The notes below the pieces were generated by a model, which was given only the letters and a program-made list of their open reading frames with translations, was not told the origin of the DNA and did not search any database. From Anaerolineales bacterium (GTDB lineage: Bacteria > Chloroflexota > Anaerolineae > Anaerolineales > UBA11579), in NCBI GenBank assembly GCA_026129305.1, contig JAHCII010000005.1:1-64000 (forward strand): DNA of 64,000 bases, given 5' to 3'. Below, one piece after another: positions 3,734 to 5,015 of this stretch. How positions within the stretch are numbered: the first letter of the stretch is position 1; every line of letters starts with the position of its first letter. Both the position numbers and the translations under genes were made by a program.

Positions 3734-4720
3734 CTATTTCCCGAAAATATCATGATAACCGCGATCCAATTCATCATCGCTTAAGTGGGCGTAGCGCTGG
3801 GTGACCTGAATGTTGCGATGGCGGGCGAGCTCCTGAGCCAGTTTGAGATTGCCACCTGATCCCCTCAGAACTGTGGTCACGAAGTAGTGGCGGAAGGAGT
3901 GGGGCGTAATGCCGCTGTTCTCCACGCCCAGCGCTTGCTGCGTGCGTTCCGCCACAATATTCCTGCCCGTAGTAGGAGTCATCAGCTTGATTGTTTTTGC
4001 ACTGCCTTTGTCGTGACGAGCGAATATGGGCAGTGCGCCTAAGGGGCGGCCTGAACTCCCATCCAAGCTGCTGCGCGCATTGAGATAGTCCTTGATGGCG
4101 CGCAGGGCGCGTTTGGAGAAACGCACAACTGCCTCACGGTTGCCTTTGCCGATGATGATGGCTTTGCCTTCGTTGGGGTCCAAGTCGCCCCGGCGCAAAT
4201 TGCAGGCCTCGTGCACGCGCAGGCCCGTATCGGCCAAGGTAATAATGAAAGCGCGGTCACGCAAGTTGCGCAGGTGCTCTGTCTCGTTCTCCGCGGGATA
4301 AGCGGCCAGCTGGTTGGCAAACTCCACAGTTTGCTCAATAGCCTGGCGCGGGAACTGCGGCAAGCGGGGGCCGGGCCGGCGGCTGCGCTGGCGGATCAGC
4401 AGGCGCACGCGCGGAAGGTTGGGCTCGGCCAGTCGCTCAGCGGCCAGGAACTCAAAGAAGCCGGCGACCGCTGTCAGACGTTGGCGCTCCGTGGCCGGCG
4501 AGAGATGCTTCTGCGAGGCAGCAAACCAAGCCACAGCGTCTTCTTTTAGGTGCGAAAGAGAGGTTTCTCTGGGATCTAAACCCTCATTGCGAAGCACTTG
4601 CGAAAAAGCTGCCAGGGCTTTGTGATAAGCGATGGTGGTGTTCTCTGACCTGGCCAGTTTTACCGTATCCACATACTGACCGATGGCTTGTTCGATTGTG
4701 AGCGTAGTTTCCGAATCCAT
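3734..4720 (-). CDS. tyrosine site-specific recombinase, XerC/XerD-like
   Basis: This is a 328-residue tyrosine recombinase. The N-terminal SAM-like core-binding domain spans about residues 5-100. The catalytic domain has a complete active-site set: Arg168 (TGLRVHEACNL), Lys192 (IIGKGNR), His274 and Arg277 (TPHSFRHYF), His301 (ARHRN, where most relatives have GH) and the nucleophile Tyr310 (RYAHLSD). Size and lack of extra domains fit a housekeeping Xer protein or a small element integrase. A TATAAT box lies 9 bases before the ATG. No phage or integron genes are nearby. A dif-like inverted repeat lies about 260 bases upstream at 4983-5015. A chromosome dimer-resolution role is an inference from that site. 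Confidence 0.88.
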   Translation of the reverse strand: MDSETTLTIEQAIGQYVDTVKLARSENTTIAYHKALAAFSQVLRNEGLDPRETSLSHLKEDAVAWFAASQKHLSPATERQRLTAVAGFFEFLAAERLAEPNLPRVRLLIRQRSRRPGPRLPQFPRQAIEQTVEFANQLAAYPAENETEHLRNLRDRAFIITLADTGLRVHEACNLRRGDLDPNEGKAIIIGKGNREAVVRFSKRALRAIKDYLNARSSLDGSSGRPLGALPIFARHDKGSAKTIKLMTPTTGRNIVAERTQQALGVENSGITPHSFRHYFVTTVLRGSGGNLKLAQELARHRNIQVTQRYAHLSDDELDRGYHDIFGK

Positions 4721-4982: not shown

Positions 4983-5015
4983 ATGATTTACGATAATAAT
5001 ACTTATCGAAATCAT
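4983..5015. other. dif-like inverted repeat near a Xer recombinase gene
   Basis: The left arm ATGATTTACGATAA (4983-4996) and right arm TTATCGAAATCAT (5003-5015) are complementary except for one extra A, and flank a six-base spacer TAATAC. Inner ends ATAA and TTAT around a six-base centre are the layout of bacterial dif sites, where XerC and XerD each bind an 11-base arm. The rest of 4891-5221 shows no gene on either strand, and I see no other clear element in it. Confidence 0.4.

Follow-up and report, generated by a model that had tools for sequence, protein, structure and literature searches.

The window analysed here, a stretch of 64,000 nucleotides, belongs to a draft genome of 2,115,839 bases in 39 contigs (92.9% complete), and close to its left end it carries a tyrosine recombinase gene and an intergenic, nearly palindromic site, which were delimited as follows:

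3734..4720, minus strand: Xer-type tyrosine recombinase, 328 aa, intact open frame, PF00589 match of 88 bits
4986-5013: dif-like site, 28-bp core, ATTTACGATAA TAATAC TTATCGAAATC, 11-6-11 layout, intergenic
4984..4996, plus strand: left arm of the dif-like site, TGATTTACGATAA, inner end ATAA; family consensus ATGYTTNCGATAA
4997..5002, plus strand: six-base centre, TAATAC; family consensus TNATAC
5003..5015, plus strand: right arm of the dif-like site, TTATCGAAATCAT; family consensus TTATCGAAAGCAT

The preliminary description of this locus had proposed a complete tyrosine recombinase gene with a dif-like site 263 bases upstream of it, and both statements were confirmed, the distance between the ATG of the open frame and the 32-bp site being 263 bp. 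The predicted catalytic residues of the recombinase are R168, K192, H274, R277, H301, and Y310 (numbering of the translated product), and this RKHRHY set is invariant at all 112 recombinase loci compared, some of which represent one genome taken twice. The protein scored below the equivalog cut-offs of XerC and XerD (TIGR02224, 131.8 vs 335 bits; TIGR02225, 120.1 vs 330 bits), of XerS (NF003462, 59.4 vs 267 bits), and of the archaeal XerA (NF040815, 115.2 vs 220 bits). As these scores are far under the cut-offs, the recombinase is considered Xer-like but placed outside the XerC, XerD, XerS, and archaeal XerA groups. Its top PDB matches were Thermoplasma XerA and E. coli XerD, and no XerH chains were present among the PDB matches at E ≤ 0.001. 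Homologues sharing about 40–96% identity occur throughout the order Anaerolineales, and remoter ones were detected in other parts of the class. The genes near the module in the window encode a CNNM transporter and a TauE/SafE permease.

The geometry of the site, i.e., arms with inner ends ATAA and TTAT around a six-base centre, had been likened to that of bacterial dif sites, and this was upheld at positions 4986-5013: the pattern ATAA-6-TTAT with at least 8 of 11 matching arm positions occurs at one place in the window, compared with a mean of 0 in Markov-shuffled windows. The relatives extend the conserved arms to 13 bp each (4984-4996 and 5003-5015), and in the family consensus, ATGYTTNCGATAA-TNATAC-TTATCGAAAGCAT, nearly the same 13-bp arms flank an asymmetric six-base centre. 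In the alignment of 80 distinct homologous sites, conservation is higher in the right arm than in the left one. At several arm positions, the left-right agreement exceeds that of shuffled pairings, with bases partly shared by descent and p-values that are not independent. Moreover, at five loci the right arm is changed from TTATC to TTAAG, and in all five the left arm is changed as well (ATTAA or CTTAA); in the recombinase tree, the loci with the TTAAG right arm are split between two separate clades.

It had further been predicted that the site would be single-copy and conserved beside the recombinase in relatives, and both predictions held. Only one copy was detected in the 2.1-Mb draft (≤3 mismatches in 27 bp), while an E. 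coli-like dif was absent from this genome at ≤3 mismatches. The site was present at 97 of the 112 recombinase-encoding loci, and none was detectable at the other 15. Its orientation is opposite to that of the gene in all 75 distinct upstream regions carrying one, and in these regions it lies up to 942 bp from the start of the recombinase match (median, about 38 bp). The degenerate site pattern matched 41 of 101 relatives (one copy in 39 genomes and two copies in two), which is a lower bound because the pattern misses variant sites; the reversed pattern, used as a control, gave 0 matches in all 101. Site and gene clearly co-occur: of the 70 genomes encoding the recombinase, 39 matched the pattern, as against 2 of the 31 that lack the gene (p = 2e-6), and these two are incomplete assemblies (68% and 83% complete). 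The linkage is occasionally broken, e.g., in G097, where the site is located on another contig than the recombinase gene. In the two genomes with two site copies, one copy is gene-adjacent and one lies elsewhere (C1:15038 and C39:41397 in G059; C259:5406 and C177:4396 in G096). Six relatives of good completeness (G024, G035, G048, G072, G045, and G087) gave only weak recombinase matches and no match to the site pattern. In the first four, which lack the recombinase and the site, some other system must serve.

In the window's draft the site lies 5 kb from the contig end, and the terminus was mapped in relatives instead. For this purpose, the third-codon skews of plus- and minus-strand genes were averaged, which removes the coding-strand bias; this correction was adopted because the bias masked the raw GC skew (20-kb samples, G008). 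The clearest result was obtained for the closed genome G060: around the 20-kb bin containing both the site and the gene, the third-codon GC skew falls from +0.16 to -0.13, while the AT component rises from -0.17 to +0.09. In the closed genome G033, the AT skew crosses zero in the bins at and adjoining the site. In this genome it is the skew-defined origin that lies roughly opposite the site, and not dnaA (15%). It may be added that dnaA of this 4.4-Mb chromosome (C1, 3067534) is far from the origin suggested by the skew (about 0.5-0.75 Mb). At a coarse skew resolution, the free-fit terminus brackets the site in closed G005, and the best-fit switch lies one 110-kb sample from the site in closed G008. 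In G005, G008, and G060, dnaA is separated from the site or from the gene by 44-53% of the genome, and in G005 and G008 it is separated from the site by 47-53%. Thus, the expected position at the replication terminus, checked in relatives, was clear in G060 and consistent in G033 and G005, but missed by one sample in G008.

Genomes in which the site and the gene are apart were also inspected. In G082, where the site (287.4 kb) is 68 kb from the gene (218.8 kb), the skew drops to zero at the site and is unchanged on either side of the gene. In G059 the AT skew changes from -0.32 to +0.16 over 40 kb at the second, unlinked copy (41.4 kb). These two unlinked cases indicate that the skew switch tracks the site rather than the gene. 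The skew of G047 is noisy but consistent with a terminus at the site, and no clear GC-skew switch was seen at the unlinked sites of G097 and G034, both located on contigs that end within 13 kb. Within the window, plus-strand genes to the right of the site show a negative third-codon GC skew, which agrees with a position beyond a terminus; on the left, the contig offers too short a flank for comparison.

The suggestion that a single recombinase serves this site was supported by the genome content. Only two PF00589 genes were found in closed G005, in closed G060, and in the window's own draft (93% complete), namely the recombinase and a weak match, i.e., one Xer-like paralogue, which in the window's genome is the following:

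G000:C4:5413-6378 (L113:1435-2403), minus strand: Xer-like paralogue, 322 aa, 91 bits to XerD (cut-off 330)

This paralogue is devoid of the catalytic tyrosine and of the first catalytic arginine, so that the draft encodes a single Xer-type recombinase with its catalytic residues intact. The loss of these residues was read directly in the window's genome, and in nine relatives it was inferred from the PF00589 match of the paralogue, which ends before the tyrosine. FtsK with a gamma domain was present in all 10 genomes checked.

Taken together, these data make it very probable that the site is a chromosomal dimer-resolution site (dif) and that one recombinase, the product of the adjacent gene, acts on it. 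Judged from sequence, the locus is best interpreted as an Anaerolineales dif/Xer module with a single recombinase. In such a module, two recombinase monomers would bind the near-identical arms of each dif, the FtsK translocase would synapse the two dif copies of a dimeric chromosome at the septum, and the recombinase tetramer would swap strands within the six-base centre (4997-5002, the putative strand-exchange region), separating the dimer. The asymmetry of the centre, TNATAC, would impose resolution over inversion. The gamma domain of FtsK is an activator of Xer in other bacteria; binding, catalysis, and FtsK dependence are all proposed here by homology.

A more elaborate scenario, which we regard as speculative and rather unlikely, is that XerC/XerD gave way in Anaerolineales to a separate Xer subfamily that has a dif of its own, and that the old partner is the universally conserved, catalytically dead Xer-like protein, which would still take part in chromosome segregation, perhaps in a regulatory role or by binding the left arm. 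Also unlikely is the proposal that the site is a dif of a system that is not truly single-recombinase, in which the catalytically broken paralogue (G000:C4:5413-6378) binds the left arm or regulates the reaction. The occurrence of paralogue orthologues in 65 of 65 good Anaerolineales relatives and the weaker conservation of the left arm speak for such a partner, but the arms are near-palindromic and change together, and the paralogue is not tied to the site, being retained in good genomes in which the active recombinase and the site pattern are absent (e.g., G024, G035, G048, and G072). As it is kept in these genomes, the paralogue is probably not an obligate partner. No further copies of it were found in a scan of viral contigs.

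It was also considered that the palindrome serves for autoregulation of the recombinase gene, as an operator or part of a promoter, instead of for recombination. Read on the strand of the gene, the palindrome includes a TATNAT hexamer resembling a -10 element, and the site invariably precedes the gene, in a single orientation and usually within about 100 bp. However, the distance between them reaches 942 bp, the site is kept far from the gene in G082 (68 kb) and in G097 (another contig), the skew switch of G082 and G059 is found at the site and not at the gene, and arms spaced by 6 bp with ATAA/TTAT inner ends reproduce the dif layout, all of which makes a purely regulatory role highly improbable. 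The palindrome may nevertheless serve both as a regulatory element and as a recombination site. Finally, a tyrosine recombinase adjoining a core site is typical of integrative elements, but an integrase with the attachment site of a mobile element is an explanation of almost negligible probability here, given one such recombinase per genome with homologues across families within one order, the ordinary neighbours in the window (CNNM transporter, TauE/SafE permease), the replication-terminus position in relatives, and the finding of the site on only one viral contig.

Self-contained recombinase-dif kits are already known from streptococci, Helicobacter, Legionella, and archaea, and the dif/Xer module proposed for Anaerolineales is best read as analogous to XerS/difSL, XerH/difH, XerL, and XerA/dif. 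In streptococci and lactococci, the single tyrosine recombinase gene xerS immediately adjoins a dif-like site at the terminus (PMC5357621, PMC2731167), and the recombinase gene of Anaerolineales likewise adjoins a terminus-located dif-like site; however, difSL is 31 bp long with an 11-bp centre, whereas the Anaerolineales centre has 6 bp, and the recombinase reaches 59 bits on the XerS model, whose cut-off is 267. The epsilon-proteobacterial XerH/difH system consists of a single Xer gene that in most species is linked to a palindromic site close to the peak of the GC skew (PMC2731167), which resembles the arrangement in Anaerolineales, but the sequences of the two sites are unlike. The archaeal XerA/dif system also combines a single recombinase with a 28-bp site, and the module may be linked or unlinked (PMC5357621). 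Thermoplasma XerA is the best PDB match of the Anaerolineales recombinase, yet the latter scores 115 on the XerA model (cut-off 220), and XerA appears to be FtsK-independent, whereas FtsK with the gamma domain is present in Anaerolineales. In another lineage, Legionellales, chromosome dimer resolution likewise relies on a single recombinase, XerL, with its dif (PMC9765430). The classical XerC/XerD-dif system shares with Anaerolineales the 11-6-11 layout, the ATAA/TTAT inner ends, and the FtsK gamma domain, but it uses two active recombinases vs one, and the arms of the Anaerolineales site are near-identical.

Among Chloroflexi, dif was predicted only for Dehalococcoides by Kono et al. 2011 (PMC3025954), and no published description of a one-recombinase dif/Xer system of Anaerolineales was found in the open-licence literature, subscription papers lying outside this search. 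The module would extend the short list of groups known to resolve chromosome dimers by one recombinase to a bacterial group other than Proteobacteria and Firmicutes. The consensus dif may be used for locating the replication terminus in Anaerolineales genomes, and the co-evolution of recombinase and site can be tested on the natural cases of unlinked or duplicated sites and on the two separate changes of the arms.

A copy of the dif sequence was also noticed on the 25.7-kb IMG/VR contig IMGVR_UViG_3300037851_000519 (L247:95-136), where 32 bases are identical to the chromosomal site L090. No PF00589 gene was found on this record, which is perhaps a fragment, and the L247 gene product matched no PHROGs or Pfam family. 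The contig may represent a phage that integrates through the Xer system of its host.
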